DNA of 64,000 nucleotides from Humibacter ginsenosidimutans (lineage in GTDB: Bacteria; Actinomycetota; Actinomycetes; Actinomycetales; Microbacteriaceae). Positions 4,443 through 26,392 of the stretch are shown here, piece by piece. Every line of letters begins with the position of its first letter. Within the stretch, counting starts at the first letter, position 1. Where the stretch lies: positions 1,178,001 to 1,242,000 of the forward strand of contig NZ_CP042305.1 in NCBI RefSeq assembly GCF_007859675.1, written 5' to 3'. Both the position numbers and the translations under genes were made by a program. Below the pieces are notes generated by a model. It had not been told where the DNA came from. It made no database searches and saw only the letters and a list, made by a program, of their open reading frames with translations.

Positions 4443-4713
4443 GGAGGCATCCTTTCGACCCGTCGTCACGCGCGAACGTGGTGCTCGCGCCGTGCGTATC
4501 GACCGTAACAGCGGGGACCGGGCGGAGCCTGCGCCGGCCGCACGGATCCGTCGACCGCGAGCATCGCGTAGCACCGGCGCGGTTGCCCGGCACTTGACGT
4601 TCCGCGGCCACCGTCTCACGCTGAAGGAGAGAGACACGCGATGAAGCTCGCGCACCGGCCATGTGGGCCTGATGGCTTCTGTTCCGTCCGTCCTAGGACG
4701 CGAAGGGAGCACG

Positions 4714-7116: not shown

Positions 7117-7556
7117 CCGTGAGCGGATTCGACGAGCGGCCGATCGCCGCGTCCGACCTGATCGCGACCGGCCGAGCCTATTGGCTGCCTCCCGTCGGGT
7201 ACGGCAACGGGCTGGACGCGCTGTTCTGGGCGGAACTCGCCCGCGCACCGCATCCGATCGCCGACGCGCTGCTGCGTGCGCTCGCCGACAAGGGCATTCC
7301 CGGCTGGATTGCGCCCGTCGACCGCCACCATCCCGAGTCGGGCGAGGCGCTCTACGACGTGTGGACCGCCACGGTCGACATCGATGCCGCCGAGGACACC
7401 GCGATGTTCGTGCTCAACGCGCTCACTGCGGAGACATCGCCGGTTTCCCGGGCGGCGCCGATCCCCCGGAGGTCCGCGGAACCTGATCCACCAGCACGAC
7501 GGTCCACACGCCGCCTTCGCGCACGAGCTCGTTCCACGAACCGGTCGGAGTCGTGA
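7113..7556 (+). CDS. Hypothetical protein coupled to the dynamin-like GTPase
   Basis: Up to 147 residues starting at GTG 7113, which overlaps the GTPase stop (GTGA), so the two are probably co-translated. The first ~110 residues look like a folded domain ('GRAYWLPPVGYGNGLDALFWAELARAPHPIADALL', broken by Pro/Gly turns). The last ~35 residues are Arg/Ser rich and lie antisense to the 3' end of the convergent phosphatase gene (134-bp overlap), so the true end could be shorter if a frameshift or sequencing error is present. I do not recognise the family. No signal peptide or membrane helix is seen. Confidence 0.6.
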   Translation: MTVSGFDERPIAASDLIATGRAYWLPPVGYGNGLDALFWAELARAPHPIADALLRALADKGIPGWIAPVDRHHPESGEALYDVWTATVDIDAAEDTAMFVLNALTAETSPVSRAAPIPRRSAEPDPPARRSTRRLRARARSTNRSES

Positions 7557-8058
7557 GGTCGGTGTGCGACGGATCGATCGCGCGGATCAACGGCTTGATC
7601 ACGGCGTCGTGAGTGACCACCACGACCGGGCCATCGAGGCCGGAACGGGCAGCGTCGTCGAGCACCGCGTCGAGTGCTGGACGGGCGCGCTCCAGCACGG
7701 ATGCCGTTGGCTCGACGCCGGGCGCGGCATCCACGCTTCCGAACCGCGCGATCACTTCCTCACGCACTTGGCCCGTCCATGGCCCGTAGTCGCGATCCAT
7801 GAACCGCGGATCGGCCTGCACCGGGGCTCCGCAGAGCTCGCCGATCGCCTCGGCGGTTCTCACCGCCCGGTCGAGCGGACTGCAGTACACGTGCACCGGC
7901 CCCGTGCGCGCGAGCACCTCACCCACCGCTTCGGCCTCTTTCAGTCCGATCTCGTCGAGCGGCGGGTTCGCGTGCCCGCGCAGGCGGCCCTCCGCGTTGA
8001 GCGCCGTGCGGCCGTGCCGCACCAGATACAGCGTGTGAGAATGCGCGGCGTCGTTCAC
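7423..8058 (-). CDS. Histidine phosphatase family protein (phosphoglycerate mutase-like)
   Basis: A 211-residue member of the branch-1 histidine phosphatase superfamily. 'YLVRHGRTALNAEGRLRGH' carries the catalytic RHG His; 'VYCSPLDRAVRTAEAI' and 'VVVVTHDAVIKPLIRA' supply the second Arg and His, and 'DYGPWTG' matches the family's acid loop. Substrate cannot be told; such proteins include broad-specificity phosphatases, alpha-ribazole phosphatase and PGM-like enzymes. Start GTG 8058 is preceded by GAAGG with about 9-nt spacing. It is the last gene of the ettA-led minus-strand run (23 bp after the previous gene) and its C-terminal tail overlaps the opposite gene. Confidence 0.85.
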   Translation of the reverse strand: MNDAAHSHTLYLVRHGRTALNAEGRLRGHANPPLDEIGLKEAEAVGEVLARTGPVHVYCSPLDRAVRTAEAIGELCGAPVQADPRFMDRDYGPWTGQVREEVIARFGSVDAAPGVEPTASVLERARPALDAVLDDAARSGLDGPVVVVTHDAVIKPLIRAIDPSHTDLTTPTGSWNELVREGGVWTVVLVDQVPRTSGGSAPPGKPAMSPQ

Positions 8059-8081
8059 CTGGTCCACCCTTCGGCCTGCCG

Positions 8082-10141: not shown

Positions 10142-10192
10142 GGATGCTCCTACCTTCCGTTGCCGTCCGCAGAACTGCACGGACGTCGGTCA

Positions 10193-10240
10193 GGTAGGGG
10201 CCATTGGCATTCGTCGCGGTTATGGTGAGCCCCTCCACCA
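10193..10240 (-). promoter_or_regulatory. Degenerate fluoride riboswitch-like element upstream of ettA
   Basis: On the minus strand this holds the fluoride aptamer layout: GGTG/CACC stem 1 enclosing GAGGGGCT, then AACCGC, then AATGGCCCCTACC. GGGGCT can pair with GGCCCC (six pairs, one G-U), the pseudoknot expected of the class. It departs from consensus in GATGG (here GAGGG), in CTGATG (here CCAATG), and in having only a weak stem 2. The 3' strand GCCCCTACC can pair with the ettA Shine-Dalgarno GGTAGGAGC (10146-10154), eight of nine positions, around an internal hairpin CGTCCG/CGGACG. The same platform is used by the clear copies nearby, so I favour a diverged riboswitch over chance. Confidence 0.5.
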
Positions 10241-10249
10241 CGTTGTCGC

Positions 10250-11794
10250 TCAGGTCCCTCTCGTCGTCGCGAATGCCTCGACAGGTCGTCCGTTCGCCGG
10301 ATCCGTCCTGAAGATGTCGCGATAGAGGTCCCCTCCGAAACTCGTCGGCAACGGCTCTCCGACGACGAGCCTGAACGTGCGCTCCCGTTCGGCTCGAAGG
10401 AAGAAGGCGTCGGCATCGCCGACGAAACCGTGCGCGAGATCGTACAGGTGCGTGACGTAGACCACGCGAATGCCCGAATCGAGCAGAGCACGCACGATCT
10501 GCCTGGCGATCTCCGACCCCTCGCGCTCGTTCGTGGCGGCGAACGACTCGTTGAACAGCATGAGCGAGGCGGGCGTGATCTGTCCGACGATCTCGTTCAT
10601 GCGCGCCAGTTCCTCGTCGAACTTGCCGCTGGCCAGCTCGGTGTCTTCTTCGCGCTTGAAGTGCGTGAAGACACCAGACGCGACCGTCGCCGTCATTGCC
10701 CGAGCCGGCACGACCATGCCTGCCTGCATCATCAGCTGGGCAAGACCCCTGCTTCGCAGAAAGGTGGACTTGCCCCCGCGGTTGGCCCCGGTGACCATCA
10801 TGAGTGGGTGCGAGCCTGCATCGATGGTGTTGCCGACGACGGCGACGCCTTCGCCGCCTGCCGCGGAGCCGACGAGCGCCAGGCTCGGGTCGTAGAGCTC
10901 GTCGCACGCGAACATCTGCTGCGCCTGCGCGACCGGAACGGGCATCGATGTGTGCTGGGTGCGGTCGTCGAGCGCGTGGATGAGATTCAGGCATCCGATG
11001 TAGAAACCCAGCTCGAGCCGCAGCATCGAGAAGAAGCTCAAGATGTGATCGGTCGACCTGGCCAGCGCGTCGGCGACCAGGTTCATGCCCTTCCCGCGGA
11101 ACTCGTTCAGGGCGTCGGCACCTGCCTCATCACGCTCGGCGATGCGGAATGCCGGAATCGGGTGCGTCAGCGCGCTCCACCGCTCACCGATGGTGCGCTT
11201 CTCCCGCTCCGGGCGTCGAAGCACGAGCGCCGACGGCTTGCCGCCGCGGTCGAGATGCGCGCTGATCATCACGCTGCCGCGAAAGCGCAGTCGCCGCAGG
11301 TGACGGTCGATCTCGGCGAAGTAGGCGTCATCCAGCTCACGCACGGTCATCTCGAAGAAGCGGCGGAAGCCTGCCGACTCGAACTCGTGGGCGTGATCGA
11401 CGGCGATCAGTCGCAGGGTGCGCAGTTCGGAGACGAAGATCTCCAGCACCTGCACCGCGTGCGAGAGCGTTGCGCCCGGATTGCGGTCGCTCAGCCACCC
11501 GTAGACCTTGCGCTGCCTCGTGAACGCATCCAACGCGAGGGCATACAACTCACGCACGATGCCCTCGTTTCGCATGCAGTCGCTGAGAACCTGTTGCCGG
11601 TAGAGGATGTCGTCGACATCGACGAGCGGTTCGAGCAGCAACCTGCGTGCGGCATCCTCGAGGAACCCGTCGCCGGTGCCCATCGCCGCGATCAGCGGGT
11701 CGAGGCCGAGGTCCTCAGTGAGCGCCTCCGCGTTCGGAAGCGGATTCGGTTCGGCGGGCAGGTCGCGATCGGCGAACAGCAGATACGTCTTCAT
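10250..11794 (-). CDS. MutS-like ATPase, second of a tandem pair
   Basis: A 514-residue protein ending in a MutS-type ATPase domain: Walker A GANRGGKST (about residues 333-341), 'MLFNESFAATNEREG' as Walker B/signature, and a conserved 'VVYVTHLYDLAHGF'. The first ~300 residues are helical and resemble the core/lever part of MutS proteins; the N-terminal mismatch-binding and connector domains of MutS are missing, as is the Smr domain of MutS2. Its ATG overlaps the stop of the upstream paralogue (ATGA, 11791-11794), so the two likely form a heterodimer made in equal amounts. The pair sits behind a fluoride riboswitch. DNA repair or another DNA/RNA-bound role is inference. Confidence 0.8.
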   Translation of the reverse strand: MKTYLLFADRDLPAEPNPLPNAEALTEDLGLDPLIAAMGTGDGFLEDAARRLLLEPLVDVDDILYRQQVLSDCMRNEGIVRELYALALDAFTRQRKVYGWLSDRNPGATLSHAVQVLEIFVSELRTLRLIAVDHAHEFESAGFRRFFEMTVRELDDAYFAEIDRHLRRLRFRGSVMISAHLDRGGKPSALVLRRPEREKRTIGERWSALTHPIPAFRIAERDEAGADALNEFRGKGMNLVADALARSTDHILSFFSMLRLELGFYIGCLNLIHALDDRTQHTSMPVPVAQAQQMFACDELYDPSLALVGSAAGGEGVAVVGNTIDAGSHPLMMVTGANRGGKSTFLRSRGLAQLMMQAGMVVPARAMTATVASGVFTHFKREEDTELASGKFDEELARMNEIVGQITPASLMLFNESFAATNEREGSEIARQIVRALLDSGIRVVYVTHLYDLAHGFVGDADAFFLRAERERTFRLVVGEPLPTSFGGDLYRDIFRTDPANGRPVEAFATTRGT

Positions 11795-13386
11795 CGGTGC
11801 GCCTCCCCAGCGATCGCTTCGATGATCTGCGGACCGCGCAGATGGTATTTGTCGGCCAGGGCGAGTGCATAGGCAAGGCCATCGGCCGGTCGCCGTTCCA
11901 GCTTGAAGGTGCGTTTCGTCGGCTCCGCCGGATCCACGGCAGCGACGAGGCTCACCGTCGTGTCGCTCAAGGTGCTGAGCTCATCCACGAACGTGACGCA
12001 CACCGCGAGGATGTCGCGAGCGATGATCTGCCTCAGCACGGCGGTGCCGAGCAGTACCGCGTCATCGAGAGTCGTCGAACTGAAGATCTCGTTCAGGATC
12101 ACGACGCTGTCACCCGTCGCGCGCTCGAGGATGTCGTGGATGCGCACGAGCTCGTCCTCCAGCTTGCCGCGCAGGCTCGTGACGTCTTCCTGCTGCTCGT
12201 AGTGCGTGTAGATGTCGTCGAATGCGAAGAGCGACGCGGCCTCTCCGGGCACCGGAAGCCCCAACTCCGCCAGCCAGTGCAGCTGGCCGAACGTGCGTGA
12301 GAAGGTCGTCTTTCCGCCCTGGTTCGCGCCGGTGACCACGATGAGCCGTTCGCCCCGTCGCAGCTCGAAGTCGTTGGTGACGAGCGAAGCACGCTCTCGC
12401 CCCATCCGTGAGGCGAGTGCCAGATCGAACGTGTGACGAGCCGAGACTTCTTTCGATGACGACACGTTCGGCATGCAGAACGCGAGTCCGTCCTCGATCA
12501 TGGGCGCGACGTGCTCGCGATACGAGAGGAAGAATTGAAGCTCTCGATCGACGCGGGCGACCGTGGGATCGAGGTACCGGCGTTGTCTGGTCGTCACGTA
12601 CTCACGCAAGGCAGCGAAGACAGTCGGGTTCTCCTGTGCCACCAACTGGAGAACGCCTTCTTCGACGCGATCGACATCCACGTACTCTCGGAACCTCACG
12701 AGGTGCTCTTTCACGTCGCCCTGTCGGAATCGGGCGAACGTGGCCTCGACCTCGCCGCTGTAGTCCGGTTCGTCGGCGAACGGAGCGACCTCGACGCGAA
12801 GTCCGTCGATGCGCACCGTGAAGTGGATGCTGTCGAGCTCTGCTCTGATCTCTCGCCCTTCGCGTTCCGCCGAGATGAACGCTTCGCTCCCGACCAGCTG
12901 GGCGAGCCACTCGCGCAGCGCGTTCAAGCCGTTCGAGTGCAACGTCAACTCCGTGAGTGCGGCGCTGAACGCGCGCACGGCGGCGTAGTACGTGAGCATG
13001 CCGGACAGCATCCAGAACGGCCGCTGCTCTGCTGCATACAGCTTCGACGCCTGCTGCATTCGTGCGCGATGCAGCCTCAACTGTTCGGCGAAGGTCGACA
13101 CGGCGTCGTGCACCGGCTGCTGCGCGAGATCGGTGTACACCTCCTGGCGATACACGACAACCTCGGGGTCTCGTGTCGGCGTGCGATAGATCGGCACGAG
13201 GTCGTACTCTGCTCGGTTCGTCGCGATCGCCTCGACGAGCTGATCGAGTCCGAGGTCGTGAAAGCACTCCGGTTCGCCGGTGGCCAACGTCGTTTCGGGG
13301 CCGGGAGAGAGCAGGCTTCGGAACGATGGGCCCGTCGCGGCCTCTGCCGCCTGGTCGCTGCGCAATTCGAGATTCTGATTGATCAC
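11791..13386 (-). CDS. MutS-like ATPase, first of a tandem pair
   Basis: A 531-residue paralogue of the following gene, about 20-25% alike by eye. Walker A GANQGGKTT lies at about residues 347-355, followed by 'VVILNEIFSSTTLDDA' and 'VCVTFVDELS'. The N-terminal 300 residues are helical with 'EVVVYRQEVYTDL', matching 'DILYRQQVLSDC' of its partner, so both share one architecture without the mismatch-recognition domain. Start GTG 13386 lies 6 nt after GGTAGGAG. That ribosome binding site is complementary to the 3' strand of the fluoride aptamer at 13430-13480, so translation should rise with fluoride. Target nucleic acid and activity unknown. Confidence 0.8.
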   Translation of the reverse strand: MINQNLELRSDQAAEAATGPSFRSLLSPGPETTLATGEPECFHDLGLDQLVEAIATNRAEYDLVPIYRTPTRDPEVVVYRQEVYTDLAQQPVHDAVSTFAEQLRLHRARMQQASKLYAAEQRPFWMLSGMLTYYAAVRAFSAALTELTLHSNGLNALREWLAQLVGSEAFISAEREGREIRAELDSIHFTVRIDGLRVEVAPFADEPDYSGEVEATFARFRQGDVKEHLVRFREYVDVDRVEEGVLQLVAQENPTVFAALREYVTTRQRRYLDPTVARVDRELQFFLSYREHVAPMIEDGLAFCMPNVSSSKEVSARHTFDLALASRMGRERASLVTNDFELRRGERLIVVTGANQGGKTTFSRTFGQLHWLAELGLPVPGEAASLFAFDDIYTHYEQQEDVTSLRGKLEDELVRIHDILERATGDSVVILNEIFSSTTLDDAVLLGTAVLRQIIARDILAVCVTFVDELSTLSDTTVSLVAAVDPAEPTKRTFKLERRPADGLAYALALADKYHLRGPQIIEAIAGEAHR

Positions 13387-13429
13387 CCGTGGCTCCTACC
13401 TAGACGTGCACCGAGGGTCGGTCGGTGCC

Positions 13430-13480
13430 GGTAGAAGCCATCAGCGGGTCATTCCGCGGTTGCGGCGAGCTCCATCGCCG
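13430..13480 (-). promoter_or_regulatory. Fluoride riboswitch controlling the MutS-like pair
   Basis: Minus-strand aptamer: GGCG/CGCC stem 1 around ATGGAGCT, AACCGC, stem 2 GCGG/CCGC with a 6-nt loop, then GCTGATGGCTTCTACC. GGAGCT pairs with GGCTTC as the class pseudoknot. The 3' strand GGCTTCTACC (13430-13439) can instead pair over 10 positions with GGTAGGAGCC (13391-13400), which contains the Shine-Dalgarno of the MutS-like gene, around a hairpin GCACCGA/TCGGTGC. This predicts that ligand binding frees the ribosome binding site. No U-tract terminator is present. Confidence 0.9.
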
Positions 13481-13578
13481 TGTTCCGTCTACCAGTCTGC
13501 ACGAGCGGGCACGGAATCGCCATCACCGCGCCGTCGAGCCTTGCGTTCCGGCACTCGAGAGGCAATAGCATGTGAGCA

Positions 13579-13638
13579 CGGCGATGGATCCCGCCGAGGC
13601 ACCGTCGCCTGAACCGCACACGCTGATGGCTTCCTACC
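13579..13638 (+). promoter_or_regulatory. Fluoride riboswitch controlling ppa and the MFS gene
   Basis: Aptamer GGCGATGGATCCCGCC, an inserted hairpin (AGGC/GCCT), GAACCGC, a very short stem 2, then GCTGATGGCTTCCTACC. CTACCTC (13634-13640) can form a 7-bp hairpin with GAGGTAG (13649-13655), covering the AAGGAGG ribosome binding site 5 nt before the ppa ATG. Translational control is inferred. A TTGCGT / TAGCAT pair at about 13543 and 13566-13571 is a possible promoter. It lies head to head with the riboswitch of the MutS-like pair, 98 bp away. Confidence 0.88.
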
Positions 13639-13659
13639 TCGTTTCAAGGAGGTAGCACC

Positions 13660-14166
13660 ATGTCTGCAAGCGGTATCGAGATGGTCGTGGAGATCCCGGC
13701 CGGCAGTCGGAACAAGTACGAGGTCGACCACGAGACCGGCAGGATGCGGCTCGACCGCACGCTGTTCACGGCCATGGTCTATCCGGCCGACTACGGGTTC
13801 ATCGAGGACACCCTCGCCGACGACGGCGATCCGCTCGACGCGCTCGTGCTTCTCGACGAGCCGACCTATCCGGGAGTGGTCGTGCGTATCCGTCCGATCG
13901 GCCTGTTCCGCATGGACGACGAGAACGGCCACGACGACAAGCTGATCGCCGTTCCCGACGGCGACGCGCGCTGGAACGACCTGCGCGACATCGACGATGT
14001 GCCGCAGACCACCCGTGATCAGATAGCCCACTTCTTCGCGCACTACAAGGAGCTCGAGCCCGGCAAATTCGTCACAGTGCACGGCTTCGCGCCTCGTCGC
14101 GACGCAGAAGTGCTGCTGCACGACGCTGAGCGAGCATTCCGTTACGGCGAGACGTACGAGAGCTGA
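13660..14166 (+). CDS. ppa: Inorganic pyrophosphatase, family I
   Basis: A 168-residue soluble pyrophosphatase with 'EIPAGSRNKYEVDHETG', 'YPADYGFIEDTLADDGDPLDALVL' (signature with the Mg-binding Asp residues of DGDPLD), 'DDKLIAVP' and 'HFFAHYKELEPGK'. It hydrolyses PPi to phosphate and keeps biosynthetic reactions pulled forward. Family I enzymes are strongly inhibited by fluoride, which fits the riboswitch directly upstream: more enzyme when fluoride rises. Start ATG 13660 with AAGGAGG. The MFS gene follows after 8 bp, so both share the riboswitch-controlled transcript. Whether the genome has a second, housekeeping ppa cannot be seen here. Confidence 0.95.
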   Translation: MSASGIEMVVEIPAGSRNKYEVDHETGRMRLDRTLFTAMVYPADYGFIEDTLADDGDPLDALVLLDEPTYPGVVVRIRPIGLFRMDDENGHDDKLIAVPDGDARWNDLRDIDDVPQTTRDQIAHFFAHYKELEPGKFVTVHGFAPRRDAEVLLHDAERAFRYGETYES

Positions 14167-14174
14167 CCGCACCG

Positions 14175-15425
14175 ATGGCGACCGAACACGAGGATGCCCG
14201 CCGCCCGCGCTGGCTCACCCTCGGCGTGTTCAGCATCGGAGCGACGAGCTTTCTGTCGGATGCCGGCCACGAGCTCGTCACGTCGGTGCTGCCCGCGTTC
14301 ATCACGAGCGTGCTCGGCGCAGGGGCGGCGGCGCTCGGCATCATCGACGGTGTGGCGGATGCTCTCACCGGCCTGGCCAAGCTGGCCGGCGGCCCGCTCG
14401 CCGACGATCCGCGCCGCCGGCGTACGGTCGCCGGCGCCGGATACACCACGACCGCCGTGGCGACGGCCGCCATCGGGCTCACCACCGCGGTGTGGCAGGT
14501 GGGTGTGCTGCGCGGTATCGCGTGGATCGCGCGCGGGTTCCGCTCTCCGGCGAGAGACAGCATGCTCGCATCGCTCGCGGGATCCGGCGCCTACGGCCGC
14601 GCCTACGGTGTCGAGCGCGCGGGCGACAACCTCGGCGCGGTCGTCGGACCGCTGCTCGGCGGGGCTCTCGTTGTGTGGCTCGGGCTGCGCCCGGCGATCC
14701 TGCTTTCCGTGGTGCCCGGCCTGCTCGCCGCCGTCGCGATCGGCGTGGCCGCTCGCCAGGCTCGCAAGCTCACGACCGATGCCGGCGAGCGGGTGGTGAC
14801 ACGGGCGCGACTGGTCGAGGGCTACCGCCGGCTACGCGGCACCGGTCTCGCCAGAGCGCTCGTTCCCGTCGCGCTGTTCGAGGGCGGAAACCTGGCCGCC
14901 ACACTGCTGATCCTGCGGGCGTACCAGCTCTTCCTCGACGGCGGTATGACCGAGTCGCAGGCGACGGGCCTGGCCACGGTGCTCTACGCCGCCTACAACG
15001 CCGCGGCGGCCCTGATCGCGGTGCCGGCGGGCGCACTCATCGACCGCATCGGGCCGCGCACGGTGCTGGCACTCGGCGCCGCGGCGTATGTGGTCGCCTA
15101 TCTCGGCTTCGCGTTCGCACCCGATGTCTGGCCGGCCGTTCTCGTGTTCTTCGTGCTCGGCGGCGTGGGCATCGGCCTCGGCGAGACCGCGCAGTCGACG
15201 CTTATCGCGCACGCCCTTCCCGACGCCCTGCGCGGCTCCGGGTTCGGCATGCTCGGCCTCGTGCAGGCCGGCGGCGACCTCACGGCCACCGTAGTCGGCG
15301 GCATCGTCTACGCCACGGCCGGTCCGCTGTGGGCGTTCGCGTACGCGGCGGCGTGGATGGCGGCATCCTGCTTCGCGGCCCTCAGCGGTCGCCGTCAGGA
15401 TCGGCTCAGGCTCGCAGAGCGCTGA
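14175..15425 (+). CDS. MFS transporter in the ppa operon
   Basis: A 416-residue membrane protein with about 12 hydrophobic segments in two six-helix halves and the MFS loop-2-type sequence 'GPLADDPRRRRTVAG', plus 'ALIDRIGPRTVLALG' at the start of the second half. It begins 'FSIGATSFLSDAGHELVTSVLPAF', typical of the MFS branch found beside phosphatases and heavy-ion genes. It follows ppa by 8 bp and so is probably controlled by the fluoride riboswitch at 13579-13638. The substrate is unknown; export of fluoride-related or toxic metabolites is inference only. No DNA-binding or regulatory domain is attached. Confidence 0.8.
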   Translation: MATEHEDARRPRWLTLGVFSIGATSFLSDAGHELVTSVLPAFITSVLGAGAAALGIIDGVADALTGLAKLAGGPLADDPRRRRTVAGAGYTTTAVATAAIGLTTAVWQVGVLRGIAWIARGFRSPARDSMLASLAGSGAYGRAYGVERAGDNLGAVVGPLLGGALVVWLGLRPAILLSVVPGLLAAVAIGVAARQARKLTTDAGERVVTRARLVEGYRRLRGTGLARALVPVALFEGGNLAATLLILRAYQLFLDGGMTESQATGLATVLYAAYNAAAALIAVPAGALIDRIGPRTVLALGAAAYVVAYLGFAFAPDVWPAVLVFFVLGGVGIGLGETAQSTLIAHALPDALRGSGFGMLGLVQAGGDLTATVVGGIVYATAGPLWAFAYAAAWMAASCFAALSGRRQDRLRLAER

Positions 15426-15455
15426 ACCACATCGTCGATCACAGCACCGAGCCGA

Positions 15456-15833
15456 TCACAGCACCGAGCCGAGCCAGAGTCCCCCGAAGCCCGCCGCGAC
15501 CGTGGCGACGAGCACGACGAACCCGTTCGTGATCGCCATCACGTACTCGCGCTCCTGGACGAGCCGCATGGTCTCGATGCTCGCCGTGCTGAAGGTGGTG
15601 TAGCCGCCCATCAGTCCGGTGCCGAGCACGAGAACCCACGCCGGCGCGAGCAACGAGCTCAGCGTCAGTCCGGTGAGCAGGCCGAGCACGAGCGATCCGG
15701 ACACGTTGATCACCGCCGTTCCCCACGGAAAGACCGACCTCACCCGCGAGCGCATCAGCCCGTCGACGAAGAAGCGCAGGGCGGAGCCCGCGCCGCCGGC
15801 GACGCACAGGGCCGCGAAGACGCCCGGGTTCAT
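15456..15833 (-). CDS. crcB: Fluoride channel FluC/CrcB, subunit 2
   Basis: A 125-residue protein with four hydrophobic segments. It has the FluC motifs: 'GGAGSALRFFVD' near the N-terminus, 'GTAVINVSGSLVLG' with the pore Asn, and 'GTGLMGGYTTFSTAS' in helix 3. Starts at ATG 15833, overlapping the stop of the other subunit by 4 bp. Pairs of different small FluC proteins in one operon usually form an antiparallel heterodimer that lets fluoride leave the cell. The pair is downstream of a riboswitch-controlled enolase. A longer in-frame reading upstream (to 15953) lies inside the other crcB and is not used. Confidence 0.95.
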   Translation of the reverse strand: MNPGVFAALCVAGGAGSALRFFVDGLMRSRVRSVFPWGTAVINVSGSLVLGLLTGLTLSSLLAPAWVLVLGTGLMGGYTTFSTASIETMRLVQEREYVMAITNGFVVLVATVAAGFGGLWLGSVL

Positions 15834-16369
15834 CTGCTCTTCCTTCCCGGCAGGGCGCGCCAGCGCTGGATCTCTCCGCCGACGGCGATGCCGGCGAACG
15901 ATGCAGCCGCGCCCACGATCACCGTGAGCACGCCGTAGAGGATGCCCACCCACGCGTGGCCCCCCACGAACGTCTGCGCGACGCCGACCGCGAGCGTGCT
16001 GTAGGTGGTGTAGCCGCCCATGAACCCGGTGCCGATCAGCAGGCGGAGCGTGCGCCGCACGCCCTCGTCGCCGCCCAGGTGCAGCAGGGTCTCGAGAACC
16101 ACACCGAGAGCGAACGCGCCCGTGACGTTGATCACGAAGATGCCGAGCGGGAACACGCCGGCCGGGATGACCAGGCTCAGAGCCTCGCGCGCCGCGGTGC
16201 CGACGGCCCCGCCGAGCGCGACCACCCCGAGGTACGACCAGCGCAGGTGCACGGGGCGAGGACGCGAGGGCGGCCTGGCGTCTGCGACCTCGATGTCGCT
16301 GTCGATCGGCAGGTCGTGCGACGCCGTCGGGTGCGGCCGGCCCACGGCATCCGATTGCGGCGGGGTCAT
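15830..16369 (-). CDS. crcB: Fluoride channel FluC/CrcB, subunit 1
   Basis: A 179-residue FluC subunit. The first ~45 residues are hydrophilic and Pro/Asp rich, an extension not needed for the fold; the core then has 'GGAVGTAAREAL', 'GIFVINVTGAFALG' and 'GTGFMGGYTTYSTL'. It probably pairs with the overlapping downstream subunit. It begins 43 bp after the enolase stop, so the order eno-crcB-crcB is likely one transcript behind the riboswitch at 17748-17812. A start nearer the core (within the extension) is possible, but no internal ribosome binding site stands out. Confidence 0.93.
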   Translation of the reverse strand: MTPPQSDAVGRPHPTASHDLPIDSDIEVADARPPSRPRPVHLRWSYLGVVALGGAVGTAAREALSLVIPAGVFPLGIFVINVTGAFALGVVLETLLHLGGDEGVRRTLRLLIGTGFMGGYTTYSTLAVGVAQTFVGGHAWVGILYGVLTVIVGAAASFAGIAVGGEIQRWRALPGRKSR

Positions 16370-16412
16370 GGTGGTCGTCTCGTCGTTCAGGGTCGTTCCT
16401 CTCGAGGGCGTG

Positions 16413-17717
16413 TCAGCGCAGTCCGTAGCGCAGCCGCGGTTCGCTGCGCTCGATGCTCATCAGGCGGTTGTACTTGGCGACGCGTTCTCCCCTGGCCGGG
16501 GCGCCCGACTTGATCTGCCCGACGCCTGTGCCGACCACCAGGTCGGCGATGAACGTGTCGGGCGTCTCGCCCGAGCGATGGGAGACCATGCAGGTCATGT
16601 CGTTCTCACGCGCGGCGGCGATGGCGTCGAACGTCTGACTCACGGTGCCGATCTGGTTCACCTTGATGAGCGCACTGTTCGCGTAGTGCTCGGCTGCACC
16701 CTGGCGGATGCGCGCGGGATCGGTCACGAAGAGATCGTCGCCCATCACCTGTGCTCGATCGCCGACTCGCTCGAAGAGCAGCTGCCAGCCCTCGAAGTCG
16801 TTCTCCGCCATGCCGTCTTCGAGGCTCCAGATCGGGTAGTCGCCCAGCAGCCCGTCGTAGTAGTCGACGAGCTGGCGGCGATCGAGGCGTCGTCCGTCCA
16901 CCTGGTAGTTGCCGTCACCGAGGTAGAAGCCGTTCGCCGCCGGATCGATCGCGACCTTCACCTGGTCGGTCGTGTATCCGGCGGTCGCGATCGCGGCCAC
17001 CAGCAGATCGAGCGCCTGCACCGGATTCGCGATCGGAGGAGCGAAACCTCCCTCGTCGCCGAGACCGGCGGTGTGGAACTGGTCGCGCACCGCCGCCTGC
17101 AGAGCGTGGTAGGTCTCGGAGCCCGCGCGCACGGCATCCTGCTCGGAGCCCACTCCGACAGGAGCGATCATGAACTCCTGGAAGTCGAGGTCGTTCGCGG
17201 CGTGCGCGCCGCCGTTGAGCACATTGAAATGCGGAACCGGCATCAACGGGTCGGAGCCGGTCTGGGCGGCGATCCACACGTACAGGGGCACTCCGGCGAG
17301 GTGGGCGAAGCCGCGGGATGCCGCCATCGACACCGCGACGATGGCATTGGCTCCCAGCCTCGCCAGATTCGGCGTGCCGTCGAGCTCTCGCAGCGCATCG
17401 TCGAGCTGGCGGATGCCATCCCACGGGGTCGCGGTGAGCGTCGCCGCCACCGCGCCCTCGACGCCGGCAACGGCATTCAGCACGCCGCGTCCGGAGTATT
17501 CGGGAGCGTCATCGCGCAGCTCAACCGCCTCGAACGCGCCGGTGGATGCACCGGCGGGAGCGGCTGCCTCGTGCACCGACCCGTCGTCGAGCGTGAGCGC
17601 GACCGAGATCGTCGGCCACCCGCGGGAGTCGAGCACTTGCTCGGCCCGCACGGACGTGATCGACAGCCGGCCGCCGTGCAGAACATCCTGGATGCCTGAA
17701 GGGGCTGTGCTGGACAT
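16413..17717 (-). CDS. eno: Enolase (phosphopyruvate hydratase), fluoride-regulated copy
   Basis: A 434-residue enolase that converts 2-phosphoglycerate to phosphoenolpyruvate. Visible active-site elements: 'GASTGAFEAVELRD', 'NGGAHAANDLDFQEFMI', 'GLGDEGGFAP', 'SLEDGMAENDFEGW', 'ALIKVNQIGTVSQT' (catalytic Lys) and 'MVSHRSGETPDTFIADL'. It diverges from typical bacterial enolases (DSRGWPT instead of DSRGNPT, a ~17-residue N-terminal extension), so it is probably a second enolase. Fluoride with phosphate inhibits enolases, which fits the riboswitch in its leader and the two crcB genes behind it. Start ATG 17717 follows GGTAGGTG. Confidence 0.93.
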   Translation of the reverse strand: MSSTAPSGIQDVLHGGRLSITSVRAEQVLDSRGWPTISVALTLDDGSVHEAAAPAGASTGAFEAVELRDDAPEYSGRGVLNAVAGVEGAVAATLTATPWDGIRQLDDALRELDGTPNLARLGANAIVAVSMAASRGFAHLAGVPLYVWIAAQTGSDPLMPVPHFNVLNGGAHAANDLDFQEFMIAPVGVGSEQDAVRAGSETYHALQAAVRDQFHTAGLGDEGGFAPPIANPVQALDLLVAAIATAGYTTDQVKVAIDPAANGFYLGDGNYQVDGRRLDRRQLVDYYDGLLGDYPIWSLEDGMAENDFEGWQLLFERVGDRAQVMGDDLFVTDPARIRQGAAEHYANSALIKVNQIGTVSQTFDAIAAARENDMTCMVSHRSGETPDTFIADLVVGTGVGQIKSGAPARGERVAKYNRLMSIERSEPRLRYGLR

Positions 17718-17747
17718 GGTTCACCTACCTCGACTCGGGATGAGTTC

Positions 17748-17812
17748 GGTAGGAGTCATCAGCCGACGTGGCGGTTCGTGCGCGCAGCGCTCGGGCGGAT
17801 ACCCCATCGCCC
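17748..17812 (-). promoter_or_regulatory. Fluoride riboswitch controlling eno-crcB-crcB
   Basis: Minus-strand aptamer: GGGCG/CGCCC stem 1 around ATGGGGTATC, an inserted hairpin (GCGC/GCGC), GAACCGCC, stem 2 GCC/GGC, then GCTGATGACTCCTACC, close to the class consensus. GGGGT can pair with ACTCC as the pseudoknot. CCTACC (17748-17753 on the forward strand as GGTAGG) can pair with the GGTAGG of the eno ribosome binding site (17724-17729), so ligand binding should open translation. Confidence 0.92.
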
Positions 17813-17862
17813 AGGTTTCGAGGGTACAGCACGGCGGCGAACACGCCGAAAGAACGAGATCC

Positions 17863-17891
17863 TTGACGGCCGCGGCACCGTTTGGTCTACT
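17863..17891 (+). promoter_or_regulatory. Promoter of the hydrogenase-like operon
   Basis: A -35 box TTGACG at 17863-17868 and a -10 box TCTACT at 17886-17891 are separated by 17 bp, the ideal spacing for the housekeeping sigma factor. Transcription would start at about 17897-17899, right at the 5' edge of the fluoride aptamer that begins at 17896. Confidence 0.65.
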
Positions 17892-17895
17892 GAGA

Positions 17896-17974
17896 CCGGC
17901 GATGGTGCTCGCCGGGATCCGACTTCCGAACCTTCTCGGTTCCGAACCGCCCACGTGCTGATAGCGCCTGTTTC
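17896..17974 (+). promoter_or_regulatory. Fluoride riboswitch controlling the hydrogenase-like operon
   Basis: CCGGCG/CGCCGG stem 1 around ATGGTGCT (17896-17915), an inserted hairpin GAACC/GGTTC, then GAACCGC, a short stem 2 and GCTGATAGCGCC. GGTGCT pairs perfectly with AGCGCC, so the pseudoknot is kept although both strands differ from the other copies. The usual TACC tail is replaced by TGTTTCC. It lies divergently from the eno riboswitch, 83 bp away. Confidence 0.85.
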
Positions 17975-18060
17975 CCCGAAGGGAACAGGTATGCGCACAG
18001 GCTCGTGGGTCCGCGCGGCGGTCAGCCGCACCCGCGAGTTCTGTGCGCATACGAGGCGCT
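17963..18060 (+). promoter_or_regulatory. Expression platform with long-range pairing after the riboswitch
   Basis: CCTGTTTCCC (17967-17976) forms a hairpin with GGGAACAGG (17981-17989), hiding an AAGGGA ribosome binding site in front of ATG 17991. A 12-bp perfect inverted repeat, GTATGCGCACAG (17989-18000) with CTGTGCGCATAC (18041-18052), and AGCGCCT (17963-17969) with AGGCGCT (18054-18060) can extend this into one long structure. AGCGCC is also the aptamer pseudoknot strand, so the two folds compete. No U-tract is seen. Confidence 0.55.
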
Positions 18061-18086
18061 TCGCACGGTCGGCGGACCCATGCTGA
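17991..18086 (+). CDS. Possible leader peptide before hyfC-like gene
   Basis: A 31-codon reading frame starts at ATG 17991 with GAAGGGA about 6-11 nt upstream and stops at TGA 18084-18086, which overlaps the ATG of the next gene (18080). The predicted peptide is basic with two Cys. The next gene has only a poor ribosome binding site of its own, so translation of this frame could be coupled to it. The hairpin described for the riboswitch platform covers this start. The peptide itself may have no function. Evidence is positional only. Confidence 0.35.
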   Translation: MRTGSWVRAAVSRTREFCAHTRRFARSADPC

Positions 18087-19039
18087 CCCTGTCGCTTCCC
18101 GTCATCCAGGCGTTGCAGGTTGCGACGATCGTCTTCGCTTCTCCCGGCATCACGGGCGTGATCTCACGGATCGAAGCGCGAATGCAGGGCAGGCGCGGAC
18201 CACGCATTCTGCAGCCCTACTACGACCTCGCCAAGCTGTTCCGCAAGGAGAGCCTCGCACCGCTGCACAGTGGGCCGCTTTTCCTGCTTGCGCCGGTTCT
18301 CGCGTTCGCGTGCTACCTCACCGTGCCCATGCTCATCCCGGTGCTCACCACGTACGCGTTGCCGCTCGGGAATATGGGCGACATCCTCGGCGGAGGCATC
18401 ATCCTCGCGTTCGCGAGCTTCATGGTGGCCGCCGCTGCAGCGGAGACGGGAGACCCGTACGCGCAGCTCGGTGCAAGTCGCGCGAAGACCTTCGGCGCCA
18501 TCACCGAGCCTGTGGTTCTGCTCGTCGTCTTCACCGTGGCGCTCGTCACCTCCACCGACCTTCCCTATGTGCTTGCCGCCACCGTCACGAGCGGACCGGC
18601 TCAGCTTGTACGACCGGCTCACCTTCTGGCATCGGCGGCGCTGTTCATGGTGATCCTGTACGAGACGGGGCGCATCCCCATCGAGACGCACACCGGCACG
18701 ATCGAGCTGGGAATGATCGAAACGGCGCGCCCGTTCGAGCACTCCGGTCCCTACTACGCGTTGCTGAAGTGGGGCTCGTCCGCGAAGCAGCTGATCTTCT
18801 ACACACTCTTCCTCAACGTGTTCGCGGCGCCATGGGGTCTTGCCTCGACCCGAGACCTCGGGCCGGTGCTGTTCGCCATCGTCGCGCTGATCGCCAAGGC
18901 GATCGTGGTCGGCGTCGTCGTGAGTGTGATCGACAACACCTTCGCGAAACTCCGGCTGTTCCGCATCACCGAGTTCGTGTCCGCGGCTTTCCTCCTGGCT
19001 GTGCTGGCCATCTTCACGCTCTATCTCGGAGGCGGATAG
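18080..19039 (+). CDS. HyfC/NuoH-like membrane subunit of a hydrogenase-related complex
   Basis: A 319-residue integral membrane protein with about eight hydrophobic segments, homologous to HyfC/HycD and NuoH. Family features: 'FASPGITGVISRIEARMQGRRGP' and 'LQPYYDLAKLFRKES' after the first helix (the loop that touches the soluble arm), 'EIGRIP'-type motif as 'YETGRIPIETHTGTIELGMIE', and 'SSAKQLIFY'. In complex I this subunit forms part of the quinone/ion coupling chamber. It opens a run of five genes with 2- to 4-bp spacing. Start at ATG 18080 aligns with HyfC; its own ribosome binding site is weak, suggesting coupling to the leader frame. Confidence 0.88.
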   Translation: MLTLSLPVIQALQVATIVFASPGITGVISRIEARMQGRRGPRILQPYYDLAKLFRKESLAPLHSGPLFLLAPVLAFACYLTVPMLIPVLTTYALPLGNMGDILGGGIILAFASFMVAAAAAETGDPYAQLGASRAKTFGAITEPVVLLVVFTVALVTSTDLPYVLAATVTSGPAQLVRPAHLLASAALFMVILYETGRIPIETHTGTIELGMIETARPFEHSGPYYALLKWGSSAKQLIFYTLFLNVFAAPWGLASTRDLGPVLFAIVALIAKAIVVGVVVSVIDNTFAKLRLFRITEFVSAAFLLAVLAIFTLYLGGG

Positions 19040-19041
19040 CC

Positions 19042-19728
19042 GTGATCGACATCCTCGCCGTGGCGCGCCCAGCGCCCACCGTCTTCGACGGCACCGCGAA
19101 CACCGTGGCCGTGATCGTGCTGCTGCTCGAGTTCGGCATGCTCCGGGCGTCCCTCTTCGGCGCCCAGGTACGGCTCTACGCTGCACAGTCGGTCGCGGTC
19201 AGTGTGTTGGCCGGTGTCGTGGCGGTCGGCCGCGGTGTACCGGAGCTCTTCATACTCGCCGTGCTCTCGCTGTTGCTGAAGGCCGTCATCGTGCCGCTCG
19301 TCATGATGAGCCAGCTGCGCGACAGCCGGGCGGAGATCGCGGGCAGCGGTTCCCTCGGCGTCGCGAGCGAGGTGATCATCTCGATCCTCGTGGCGGCGTT
19401 CGGATTCTTCGCGATCGGCGCTCTCGGCATCCACTCCGAGGTGCTGCCGGCGGCGGCACTCAGCCTGTCGATGGCCGTCGTGCTCGTCTCGTTCGTGCTG
19501 ATGATCCTGCGACGAGACGTGATCAGCCAGGCCATCGGATTCTTCTCGCTCGAGAACGGAGTCTCGATGGCGTCGCTGGTGATCGCGGCCGGCCTGCCGC
19601 TCATTCTGGAGGTGGCGTTCCTGTTCGACCTGCTCGTCGCCGTCGTGGTGTTCGGCGTTCTCATCAGGGTGCAGAGCGACCGCACGAAGTCGTTCTCCAC
19701 CGTCGCCCTCGACCGACTGCGAGGCTGA
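19042..19728 (+). CDS. HyfE-like membrane subunit
   Basis: A 228-residue membrane protein with about seven hydrophobic segments, matching HyfE (a NuoK-like subunit enlarged at the N-terminus). 'LSLLLKAVIVPLVM' and 'SQAIGFFSLENGVSMASLVIA' resemble the NuoK/HyfE region with the Glu in the membrane (here in SLENG). Start GTG 19042 lies 2 bp after the preceding stop with GGAGGCGGA upstream. It is required for the ion-translocating arm in this family. Confidence 0.85.
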   Translation: MIDILAVARPAPTVFDGTANTVAVIVLLLEFGMLRASLFGAQVRLYAAQSVAVSVLAGVVAVGRGVPELFILAVLSLLLKAVIVPLVMMSQLRDSRAEIAGSGSLGVASEVIISILVAAFGFFAIGALGIHSEVLPAAALSLSMAVVLVSFVLMILRRDVISQAIGFFSLENGVSMASLVIAAGLPLILEVAFLFDLLVAVVVFGVLIRVQSDRTKSFSTVALDRLRG

Positions 19729-19729
19729 G

Positions 19730-21223
19730 ATGAGCACGATGCTGCTGTGCGTGTTCCTGCTCCCGCTCGGGATGACGCTGCTCTCGTTTCTGCTGCCGCG
19801 TCGCGTGACCGAGATGGCCACCATCGTGGTCGGCGTCGCCACGTTCGTGCTCGCCGTCTCGCTGATGTCCGCGGTGACTCACGGAGTGGTGACCGCTCCG
19901 CCGTTCCTGCGCGTCGACGCGCTGTCGGAAATCTTCCTGCTGGCCACGGCCTTCCTCTATCCGGTGACCGCCATCTACACGATCGGCTACTTCGCCAAGG
20001 AGCGATCGATCGTCGCTCACGACGGAGCGGATGCCATTCCGCAATTCCGCCGCTACTCCCGCTTGTTCTACCTCGGCTTCAACGCTTTCGCGTGGTCGAT
20101 GATCTGCGCACCCATCGTCAACGGTCTGGCCTTGCTGTGGATCGCGATCGAGATCACCACTGTCGTCTCCGCTCTGCTCGTGGCGATCGACCGCACCGAC
20201 GGCGCCACCGAGGCCGCGTGGAAATACGTGCTGATCGCGTCCTGCGGTCTCGGGATCGGCCTGCTGGCCACGATCATCCTGTACTACGCGGGCTCGACTG
20301 TGCTTGGCGACTCCTACGACCTCGGGCTCGAGTCGATGCTGCGATCGGCGAGCAGACTCCCCGCGGTTCCTGTCCAGCTCGCTTTCGGTCTCGCCGTGAT
20401 CGGATATGGCACGAAGGTGGGCTTGTTCCCCGTGCACACCTGGCTTCCCGACGCCCACTCCGAGGCACCGACACCGATCTCGGCTCTGCTCTCCGGGGCG
20501 CTGCTCGCGACCAGTTTCTATGCCATCCTGCGCTACTACCAGATCGCGGTCGGAGCGTTGGGGCCCGCCTTTCCGCAGAACATGCTCCTGATCTTCGGGG
20601 TGCTGTCGCTCCTTCTCGCCGCTCTCTACCTCTTCGCGCAACGCAACATCAAGCGCATGCTGGCGTATTCGAGCGTCGAGCACATGGGCATCCTCGCCAT
20701 CGGCGTCAGCTTCGGCGCCCCCATCGCCTTCGCCGGCGTGCTGCTGCATGTGCTGGCTCACGCGGCGGCGAAAGGCACTGCCTTCATGGGAGCAGGAACG
20801 CTCGTGCACAAGTACGGAACCAAGGAGATGTCCGGCATGCGCGGGGCGATCCGCGCGCTGCCGTTCAGCGGCCCGATCTTCCTGATCGCGATCTTCACGC
20901 TCGGCGCGCTGCCTCCTTTCGGCATGTTCCGCAGCGAGTTCCAGATCGTCTCGGGAGGAGTGTCCAGCGGTCACGGCGTCGTCGGTGCCGTGCTGGTGAT
21001 CCTGCTCTCCACAGCCTTCCTCGGACTCATGTTCGCCACGACTCGGGTGCTGTTCGAGCCGGGCACATCCACGCCCCTTCCGTCATCGGAGCCGAGCTAT
21101 TGGATGGTCGTGCCCACCATCATCGGAGTGGTCGCGCTACTCGTGCTCGGCGTGCACCCGCCTGACACGCTGGTCGATCTGCTCACCCGCGGCGCGGCCG
21201 AGCTGACGGGAGCGGCGTCATGA
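19730..21223 (+). CDS. HyfF-like antiporter-type membrane subunit
   Basis: A 497-residue membrane protein of the NuoL/M/N (proton_antipo_M) family, about 14 hydrophobic segments. Key elements are 'WIAIEITTVVSALLVA' with the conserved membrane Glu, 'GYGTKVGLFPVHTWLPDAHSEAP' (split here for length: Lys of the TK pair and the TWLPDAH loop), 'NIKRMLAYSSVEHMG', and 'LPPFGMFRSEF'. These residues form the proton or cation path. It begins 1 bp after the HyfE-like stop and its own stop overlaps the HyfG-like start (ATGA). Ion specificity is not evident. Confidence 0.88.
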   Translation: MSTMLLCVFLLPLGMTLLSFLLPRRVTEMATIVVGVATFVLAVSLMSAVTHGVVTAPPFLRVDALSEIFLLATAFLYPVTAIYTIGYFAKERSIVAHDGADAIPQFRRYSRLFYLGFNAFAWSMICAPIVNGLALLWIAIEITTVVSALLVAIDRTDGATEAAWKYVLIASCGLGIGLLATIILYYAGSTVLGDSYDLGLESMLRSASRLPAVPVQLAFGLAVIGYGTKVGLFPVHTWLPDAHSEAPTPISALLSGALLATSFYAILRYYQIAVGALGPAFPQNMLLIFGVLSLLLAALYLFAQRNIKRMLAYSSVEHMGILAIGVSFGAPIAFAGVLLHVLAHAAAKGTAFMGAGTLVHKYGTKEMSGMRGAIRALPFSGPIFLIAIFTLGALPPFGMFRSEFQIVSGGVSSGHGVVGAVLVILLSTAFLGLMFATTRVLFEPGTSTPLPSSEPSYWMVVPTIIGVVALLVLGVHPPDTLVDLLTRGAAELTGAAS

Positions 21224-25683: not shown

Positions 25684-26196
25684 ATGTCAGTGAACGATGA
25701 CTCGGGTCGTCCACGACTCGTCGTGGGCGTCGTGCGGGAACAGCCGGACGATGTCGTGCGAGAGGCGATCCGATTCGCCGAGATGCTCGGAGCATCCCTC
25801 GAGATCGCCACCGTCGACCCCACCAGCTATACGACCGGGCACAATCCCGACGGCAGCGTCGCCGCGTTCTCGATCGATCCCGATTCCGCTGAGCTGATCA
25901 CCGAGGAGTTCAACCCCGACTTCGCGGCGCACCTCGGCACGATTCTCGAATCGGCCGGTGTGCCGTGGAAACTGCACGCACTCGCCGGCGACCCGGCACA
26001 CGAGCTCGCCAGGCTCGCTCACGAGATGGATGCCCTGGCCATCGTCGTCGGCACGCGAAAGCCCGGCTTGCGCACCACCGCACACGAATTCTTCAACGGT
26101 TCGGTGGCGGTGCACCTCGCCCATCGACAGCACCATCCCGTGATCGTGGTGCCCCTCCACCCGGCTGCCCAGGGCGAGCGCCTTCCATGGGAATGA
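25684..26196 (+). CDS. Universal stress protein (UspA family)
   Basis: A 170-residue single-domain Usp. 'LVVGVVREQPDDVVREAIRFAEMLGASLEIATV' (two parts) gives the first strand and helix; the ATP-loop-like 'VVGTRKPG' followed after nine residues by 'NGSVAVHLAH' and 'PVIVVP' matches the G-2x-G-9x-G(S/T) pattern of ATP-binding Usps. ATG 25684 has GGAAGGAAG upstream. It lies 42 bp after the hydrogenase-like operon and is probably its last gene, thus also under the fluoride riboswitch. A strong inverted repeat follows at 26256-26311. Confidence 0.88.
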   Translation: MSVNDDSGRPRLVVGVVREQPDDVVREAIRFAEMLGASLEIATVDPTSYTTGHNPDGSVAAFSIDPDSAELITEEFNPDFAAHLGTILESAGVPWKLHALAGDPAHELARLAHEMDALAIVVGTRKPGLRTTAHEFFNGSVAVHLAHRQHHPVIVVPLHPAAQGERLPWE

Positions 26197-26311: not shown

Positions 26312-26392
26312 ACCTTCCCGTCGCATCGCGGCGTTCTCGTGTCGCACCGTGTCATCGCTGGCGGCCGCCGCACATCACCGTGCGATACCGTG

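Follow-up and report, generated by a model that had tools for sequence, protein, structure and literature searches.

A putative fluoride-defence cluster in Humibacter ginsenosidimutans with six aptamer-led units, one of them a variant-core leader upstream of an ettA paralogue

The DNA analysed here is a 64,000-nucleotide stretch of Humibacter ginsenosidimutans (contig NZ_CP042305.1, positions 1,178,001 to 1,242,000; hereafter the window), in which six aptamers of the fluoride riboswitch family sit in the 5' leaders of fluoride-related genes (Table 1). A preliminary description had reported five such elements within 8 kb, and the Rfam model RF01734 matches all five at the places and strands given, with 51.4 to 24.2 bits and E-values of 4e-12 to 0.003 (computed on a 10.5-kb stretch), although only two reach the gathering score of 34 bits (51.4 and 43.0; the others have 33.3, 29.2 and 24.2, with the sixth window element unreported). 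A scan of the window with all Rfam families returned nothing else above gathering score. The five copies are thus real, but a sixth at 4628-4688 had been missed; the cluster spans ~4.6-27.3 kb and is therefore wider than first described. The gene inventory was likewise incomplete, with the dynamin-like GTPase unit and the phosphoglycerate-mutase-like gene after ettA overlooked.

Table 1. Aptamers and genes of the window cluster (positions within the window; scores from Rfam, our covariance models R1 and R3, Pfam or NCBIfam)
Feature	Position	Strand	Evidence
Sixth fluoride aptamer (dynamin-like GTPase leader)	4628..4688	+	R1 24.1 bits, E 3.6e-4 in 1.37 Mb
Dynamin-like GTPase, 800 amino acids, Cys-rich C terminus	4714..7116	+	PF00350 1.4e-23; 61-62% identity to H. 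albus
Histidine-phosphatase / phosphoglycerate-mutase-like gene after ettA	7426..8067	-	PF00300 1.8e-39
ettA paralogue (ABC-F), second copy of the genome	8459..10141	-	NF008775 824 bits
ettA variant fluoride aptamer	10186..10248	-	Rfam 24.2 bits (match 10188-10248); R3 76 bits (in R3 training set)
MutS-like ATPase B, MutS domain V only	10250..11794	-	PF00488 2.1e-19
MutS-like ATPase A, MutS domain V only	11791..13386	-	PF00488 4.1e-16
MutS-like pair fluoride aptamer	13425..13488	-	Rfam 51.4 bits
ppa-MFS fluoride aptamer	13571..13643	+	Rfam 29.2 bits; R1 65.6 bits (in R1 training set)
Inorganic pyrophosphatase (ppa)	13660..14166	+	PF00719 2.7e-57
Major facilitator superfamily (MFS) transporter	14175..15425	+	PF07690 1e-35
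FluC/CrcB subunit 2	15456..15836	-	PF02537 1.8e-22
FluC/CrcB subunit 1	15830..16369	-	PF02537 2.3e-20
Enolase (eno)	16413..17717	-	TIGR01060 488 bits
eno-fluC-fluC fluoride aptamer	17743..17820	-	Rfam 43.0 bits
Complex-I-like operon fluoride aptamer	17889..17977	+	Rfam 33.3 bits
Small open reading frame (ORF), 31 amino acids, between aptamer and hyc1	17991..18086	+	Stop overlaps hyc1 start; open in H. albus (by eye)
Complex-I/group-4-hydrogenase-like membrane complex, ~5 ORFs, without Ni ligands	18080..25641	+	Pfam
Universal stress protein (usp)	25684..26196	+	PF00582 5.8e-15
Cytochrome-b561-like membrane protein, last gene of the run	26378..27343	+	PF01292 7.3e-5, under family cut-off

The sixth element is unreported by RF01734 at E<=1 and came from R1, a covariance model of 17 aptamers that includes the window ppa-MFS aptamer, excludes the window ettA and dynamin leaders and was run over 1.37 Mb. 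It has the canonical GAUG / CUGAUGG core, a P1 of CGCG/CGCG and a pseudoknot of GAAGC/GCUUC, and its orthologue in Humibacter albus DSM 18994, the nearest named relative found, scores 28.0 bits with R1, the core being kept while the upstream region diverged. P1, P2 and the pseudoknot form in the other five elements (Rfam alignments; the sixth by eye), with two non-standard P2 pairs flagged in the hyc aptamer, and the common skeleton with stems that change in sequence but stay paired is as it had been described. Five of the window elements carry the canonical A6·U38 core and are assigned here as fluoride riboswitches. The ettA leader reads GGAG / CCAAUG instead, and since it lacks the canonical GAUG / CUGAUG core with A6·U38 we assign it to a variant subtype, which resembles a fluoride riboswitch in its structure and in the genes it accompanies.

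In all six leaders the 3' strand of the pseudoknot, together with the tail behind it, can pair with the Shine-Dalgarno (SD) sequence. This tail/SD duplex stands at or above 97% of 300 shuffles in each of the six, and reaches the 5% shuffle level in 12 of 15 leaders from the window, H. albus and a second cluster in the genome described below; its mean energy is -15.3 kcal/mol for cognate pairings versus -11.2 kcal/mol for 186 non-cognate ones. Likewise, 52 of 54 tail/SD positions are paired in six fluC leaders with the variant core. Because of this complementarity we predict that translation is ON with fluoride: in its absence the pseudoknot strand and a CUACC-like tail would pair with the ribosome-binding site (AGGUAGGAG and similar), and once the Mg-fluoride complex is bound the pseudoknot would hold that strand and leave the site free. 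Two observations weigh against this prediction, namely that three of the 15 leaders (second-cluster mutS and eno, H. albus dynamin) fall below the 5% level and that the tail and SD windows overlap in the short ppa and hyc leaders. Upstream of the complex-I-like operon, the overlap of the 31-residue ORF with the hyc1 start suggests translational coupling.

Control by transcription termination, with no masking of the ribosome-binding site, is the alternative to be weighed here. The fluoride riboswitches treated in passages of PMC10687018 and PMC13273304 terminate transcription, and several of our leaders have a GC-rich hairpin between aptamer and start. However, the partner of the pseudoknot strand is the SD itself in the six window and six variant fluC leaders, a U-run after the hairpins was not seen by eye in the leaders inspected (no terminator scan was made), and a transcriptional assay worked for only 323 of 1901 fluoride riboswitches according to the text of PMC13273304. 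We therefore regard termination as unlikely and retain the translational switch.

Four core bases of the ettA leader are off consensus, with G for A6, A for U7, C for U38 and A for G39 (T. petrophila numbering); the linchpin A40·U48 and the pseudoknot are retained. The A6·U38 pair is the reversed Watson-Crick contact of the pocket and is replaced here by G6·C38; in trans geometry G·C is the natural substitute for A·U, and the Levitt pair of tRNA is an example. The reversed Watson-Crick and linchpin contacts are described in sections of PMC10687018 and PMC8004769, the former giving the same contacts as A10-U38 and A40-U48. The element had been called a degenerate copy at 10193-10240, and its distribution points instead to a recurrent, compensated variant. 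The ettA aptamers of the window and H. albus agree at all but 3 of 52 bases while the flanks have diverged, and the G·C core before ettA is also found in G008 (locus L184), a different genus of the same family.

Using R3, a covariance model of five variant leaders with the window ettA leader among them, we found the same core, beyond its five, before eno in Actinacidiphila epipremni (L067, 56 bits), before fluC and another gene in G643 (locus L191), before a phosphoglycerate mutase gene (gpm) and a usp fragment in G008, and before an ettA-like fragment in a Streptosporangiaceae metagenome-assembled genome (L073). It is also present in the leader of a dynamin-like gene at L091. Two variant aptamers, at L191 10160-10226 (+) and L104 2172-2238 (-), precede similar-looking short membrane proteins. 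When 396 genomes of the phylum were scanned with R3, 18 matches lay outside the window genome, seven of them variant (one in each of seven genomes, assigned by eye). FluC is the next gene in six of these (Pfam CRCB in 5/5 tested, blastp for G661), and in the seventh, G693, the aptamer precedes an MFS gene. By eye, the R3 matches in G1168, G1077, G938, G949 and G1102 (two places) have canonical cores and those in G675 (two places), G1148, G928 and G1233 appear to be random matches. The variant cores combine G6·C38 with A7 or U7, A39 or G39, and U41 or C41; the exact U7/A7, C41 pattern occurs in 6/396 genomes, with 0 for a backwards control in every row shown. An earlier model of the two ettA leaders only (R2) matched 77/396 genomes of the order at E<=0.01, with a maximum of 29.4 bits outside the window genome, which we treat as background, and R2 was too narrow, since G167, later found by R3, is absent from its list. 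A 22.2-bit candidate at 664989 of the window genome (G000) was dropped because it went unreported at E<=0.1 in a scan of its 14-kb locus.

These occurrences bear on the idea that the ettA leader, as a fluoride riboswitch, has decayed and lost its sensing function, leaving ettA constitutive or off. Its 24.2 bits, under the gathering score, its four off-consensus bases and the split ettA of the G008 cluster would suit decay. They have to be set against a core conserved among the window, H. albus and G008 although the flanks diverge, its recurrence in other families before fluC, eno and further genes, the coupling of the changes at 6 and 38, and the tail/SD pairing that is kept, on which grounds we think decay improbable. 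The G6·C38 core is, on comparison of these leaders, probably a natural fluoride-aptamer subtype, present in several actinobacterial families before fluC, eno and gpm.

Most depictions of the fluoride pocket show it as almost invariant, and we examined how positions 6 and 38 vary. Two alignments of R1-found aptamers (A4 and A5) gave 167 distinct sequences, made of the 127 best A4 rows (E up to 0.013) and the 40 best A5 rows; the weaker 14 A4 rows and 4 A5 rows, including the H. albus ettA leader, were omitted. The 6/38 combinations were A·U in 149, A·C in 8, G·C in 7, and G·U, C·C and a gap in 1 each, and the two bases are coupled (Fisher p 8.5e-8, relatedness uncorrected). In a variant-enriched set of 35 distinct rows (A8, fitted to the variant model and with kinship ignored) the pair is AU in 13, GC in 12, GU in 2, other in 3 and a gap in 5. 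Across the whole structure 98.7% of A8 cells are paired, versus 90.4% when shuffled and 38-57% when slid, with 100% for P1, 100% for the pseudoknot and 97.8% for P2. In one further alignment (A2), MAFFT put the short J1/3 of three leaders wrongly, as judged by eye; these are a minority and were retained. The words 'reverse(d) Watson' and 'tertiary' are absent from the main text of PMC13273304, which deals with covariation of Rfam-derived fluoride aptamers.

Several points weigh against the variant as a strictly compensated and functional subtype. The 6·38 pair is not strict, since C38 occurs with A6 in 8/167, and the Fisher p is not a count of independent events because relatedness is uncorrected. 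The alignments A4, A5 and A8 are model-fitted, and five variants went into R3 itself. Position 41 is C in many G·C-core RNAs and positions 7 and 39 are also altered, so the pocket may differ in affinity. In G008, moreover, the gpm and usp-side variant leaders have a C·A mismatch in P1 (by eye), and its usp is a fragment of residues 79-170.

As far as tested, RF01734 scores these RNAs below its gathering score or overlooks them. At the seven variant loci of the phylum scan it gave 16.8-22.9 bits in five, none at 34 or above, and no report at E<=2 in two. The eno leader of L067, the three variant leaders of L184 and the fluC leader of L191 went unreported at E<=1, and the L091 dynamin leader and L191 10160 scored 26.2 and 22.6 bits, respectively (the variant leaders of L073, L104 and L190 lay outside this test). 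Censuses built on RF01734, such as the 2358 sequences given in the text of PMC13273304, probably overlook actinobacterial fluC regulators.

That the ligand of the G·C-core RNAs is a different one, be it another anion or a metal-fluoride species, and that they bring a second stress signal into the same regulon would fit changes that hit the pocket bases 6, 7, 38, 39 and often 41 and the presence of canonical and variant copies in one cluster (window, G008, G643), but variants precede fluC and other fluoride genes, ettA, fluC, eno and dynamin-like genes carry either core depending on the genome, and linchpin and pseudoknot are retained, which makes it very improbable. A bolder version of the subtype, put forward tentatively, is that the G6·C38 RNAs may form a natural fluoride-aptamer class of their own, in which the pocket is rebuilt and the set point or specificity differs, and may serve a second regulon tier in Actinomycetota (EttA-gated translation, glycolytic spares, exporter) that is invisible to RF01734 surveys. 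The recurrent swap of A·U to G·C at a reversed Watson-Crick contact offers natural mutants for how RNA holds fluoride.

The gene behind the variant leader encodes an EttA by family score, above the NCBIfam cut-offs of both NF008775 (824.1 versus 599) and TIGR03719 (807.9 versus 806.75), and is 66% identical to the other EttA of the genome (805488-807158). Like the EttA proteins of Mycobacterium tuberculosis (7msc) and E. coli (4fin), the cluster copy is full length, with two ABC domains and a linker, but the linker motif KSKARL has become ISAARL/MSAARL in the window and H. albus copies, with two lysines changed. We take the KSKARL region to be the P-site tRNA interaction motif of EttA. A genome of another family (G688) has two EttA copies, one of them preceded by a canonical fluoride aptamer (Rfam 30.1 bits) whose end lies 44 bases before the EttA protein match. 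With the variant core at ettA in the window and its relatives and a canonical aptamer at ettA in G688, the sequences tie ettA to fluoride through two different aptamer cores. G546 and G643, which have clusters with no riboswitch-borne ettA seen in the stretches examined, have one EttA each at E<=1e-120.

The paralogue is not strongly constrained everywhere: ettA in G008 (L184 1630-3307) spans two reading frames, through decay or sequencing error, and that of L073 is a fragment. In an EttA tree the support at the riboswitch-borne copies is 56/14, the G688 row being miscut from an over-long ORF, and the tree speaks neither for nor against a single clade. EttA gates translation according to energy state. 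Fluoride would block enolase and lower ATP, and could so bring EttA into play at translation; alternatively the cluster EttA could be a spare copy like other enzymes of the cluster.

Among the remaining genes, the FluC pair, enolase, pyrophosphatase, MutS-like pair, Usp and formate-hydrogenlyase (FHL)-like complex of the preliminary description all stand, except for the word hydrogenase. The large subunit of a group 4 [NiFe] hydrogenase binds Ni by two CxxC motifs. The window complex shares its subunit make-up with HycE-containing formate hydrogenlyase (7z0s; a 144-bit match to HycE), but the CGIC of HycE is EGIA in its large subunit, where CxxC is absent. CxxC was found in 0/11 fluoride-associated large subunits, the window included (that of the H. 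albus locus, L044, only partly covered). In the small-subunit-like part CxxC is also lost in the window and two actinobacterial relatives (GSDGSDEWE and the like) and is kept at three other loci. The absence of the nickel ligands argues, for the 11 loci checked at least, that the 'formate hydrogenlyase' association has nothing to do with formate or hydrogen. The most suitable reading of the operon is a complex that pumps ions or serves pH homeostasis and has no hydrogenase chemistry. We take the energy-converting-hydrogenase-related (Ehr) complexes to be the closest described kind. The review PMC11139923 discusses, in the part consulted, formate oxidation for fluoride-associated FHL genes. The MutS-like pair matches only MutS_V in Pfam and scores 54.0 and 64.5 bits with mutS1 (cut-off 641.7), unlike a full mismatch-repair MutS with its mismatch-recognition domains.

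Relatives of the window dynamin-like protein follow 10 of 127 aptamers at MutS-pair loci (126 with E<0.01, to which the H. albus ettA leader with E 0.1 was added; L043, a twin of L013, is omitted); downstream genes were mechanical longest-ORF choices, with 36/127 lacking an assignment, two lacking an ORF and some shadow ORFs. These followers come from Humibacter, other actinobacterial, alpha- and gammaproteobacterial and Bacillota records, and Pfam Dynamin_N is present in 8/8 tested of the ten. Two have DUF6062-like tails (below cut-off), and DUF6062 also occurs as a free-standing protein behind an aptamer. The order of ettA and then the phosphoglycerate-mutase-like gene is common to the window, H. 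albus and G008, and the cytochrome-b561-like protein has a 77% match in G126 adjoining fluC, usp and one aptamer. With the genes named by eye, further aptamers lie 17 bases before an acetyl-CoA synthetase-like gene (L189 2673-2751 +, in G546), before Nudix-like hydrolases (L191 15920-15984 + and L190 11968-12034 -), and, in two distant genomes, before a small MDVDK/LDVDK-type protein (DUF211-like) and a VIT-like membrane protein (L184 3441-3514 + and L188 10917-10979 -).

RF01734 matched 17/150 genomes of the family at E<=0.01 and 8/150 above cut-off, and R1 matched 14/394 genomes of the class at E<=1e-5, the window genome having the most with seven. At least one aptamer at E<0.01 was present in 59/78 MutS-B loci within the DNA examined. 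The density had been thought unusual, and the link to ettA was in no paper found and recurs with a canonical aptamer in G688, but density itself is not unique: 7/58 other aptamer loci near MutS-pair genes have at least four aptamers and two of these have six, one being the H. albus copy of the window cluster itself (counting its ettA leader at E 0.1). Synteny between that locus and the window cluster runs at a nucleotide identity of 79% over 12.3 kb and 75% over 5.8 kb, so the window cluster is probably resident in the genus.

A second cluster in the genome has three aptamers, before eno-fluC-fluC, ppa-MFS and a MutS pair, and its proteins are 58-82% identical to the first set. It lies in a 52.9-kb segment (3244224-3297106). 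This segment shares 99.75-99.98% identity with positions 334073-386947 of H. albus contig C13, with flanking matches above 300 bases at 74-84%. Identity steps 77 bases before a tRNA-Arg, 43 bases of whose 3' part are repeated near the opposite end. The tRNA-Arg is followed by an integrase-like ORF, so called solely on its N terminus and position. The second cluster thus looks like a recently moved, tRNA-integrated fluoride island, unlike the window cluster. The preliminary description was right that several operons for one ion are compactly clustered in the window, but the term genomic island fits the second cluster better. ORFs resembling a metal P-type ATPase and a cation efflux protein are also seen by eye in the tRNA-Arg element.

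Taken together, we consider it likely that six transcription units of the window form a cluster for defence against fluoride and that each begins with a fluoride aptamer joined to a translational ON switch, five with the A6·U38 core and the sixth, before the extra EttA and a phosphoglycerate-mutase-like enzyme, with G6·C38. The aptamers, the genes, their conservation, the 6/38 coupling and the tail/SD complementarity are features of the sequence itself, and from them we infer fluoride binding and the direction of the switch. The cluster would provide spare copies of enzymes that fluoride inhibits, a route of export, a redox-dead complex-I-like pump for pH homeostasis and, through the dynamin-like GTPase, a part in membrane stress. 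EttA and dynamin-like GTPases in a fluoride regulon give testable ideas on how fluoride reaches translation and membranes.

Compared with the crcB motif of RF01734, the variant keeps P1, P2, the pseudoknot, the linchpin A40·U48, the position in the 5' untranslated region and fluoride genes downstream. Earlier papers already report the MutS, Usp, enolase, pyrophosphatase and FHL associations, and those of MutS, formate hydrogenlyase and Usp had been correctly named in the preliminary description: mutS, formate-hydrogen-lyase and ion-transporter genes follow crcB RNAs in the relevant part of PMC2864571 (Weinberg et al. 2010), where ettA and dynamin-like genes are unnamed, and PMC11139923 treats the enolase and pyrophosphatase associations. 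A full-text search, which did not cover the gene list of Baker et al. 2012, returned no paper joining the fluoride riboswitch with EttA, ABC-F or dynamin. The nearest parallel is the fluoride-induced FRM operon ppaC-uspA-eno-gpmA-crcB, described in portions of PMC5533749 on a genomic island of Enterobacter cloacae, which shares pyrophosphatase, Usp, enolase, phosphoglycerate mutase and CrcB with the window. As presented there, however, it has one riboswitch and one operon, whereas the window has six riboswitches and six units and adds the MutS-like pair, ettA, the dynamin-like gene and the complex-I-like operon.

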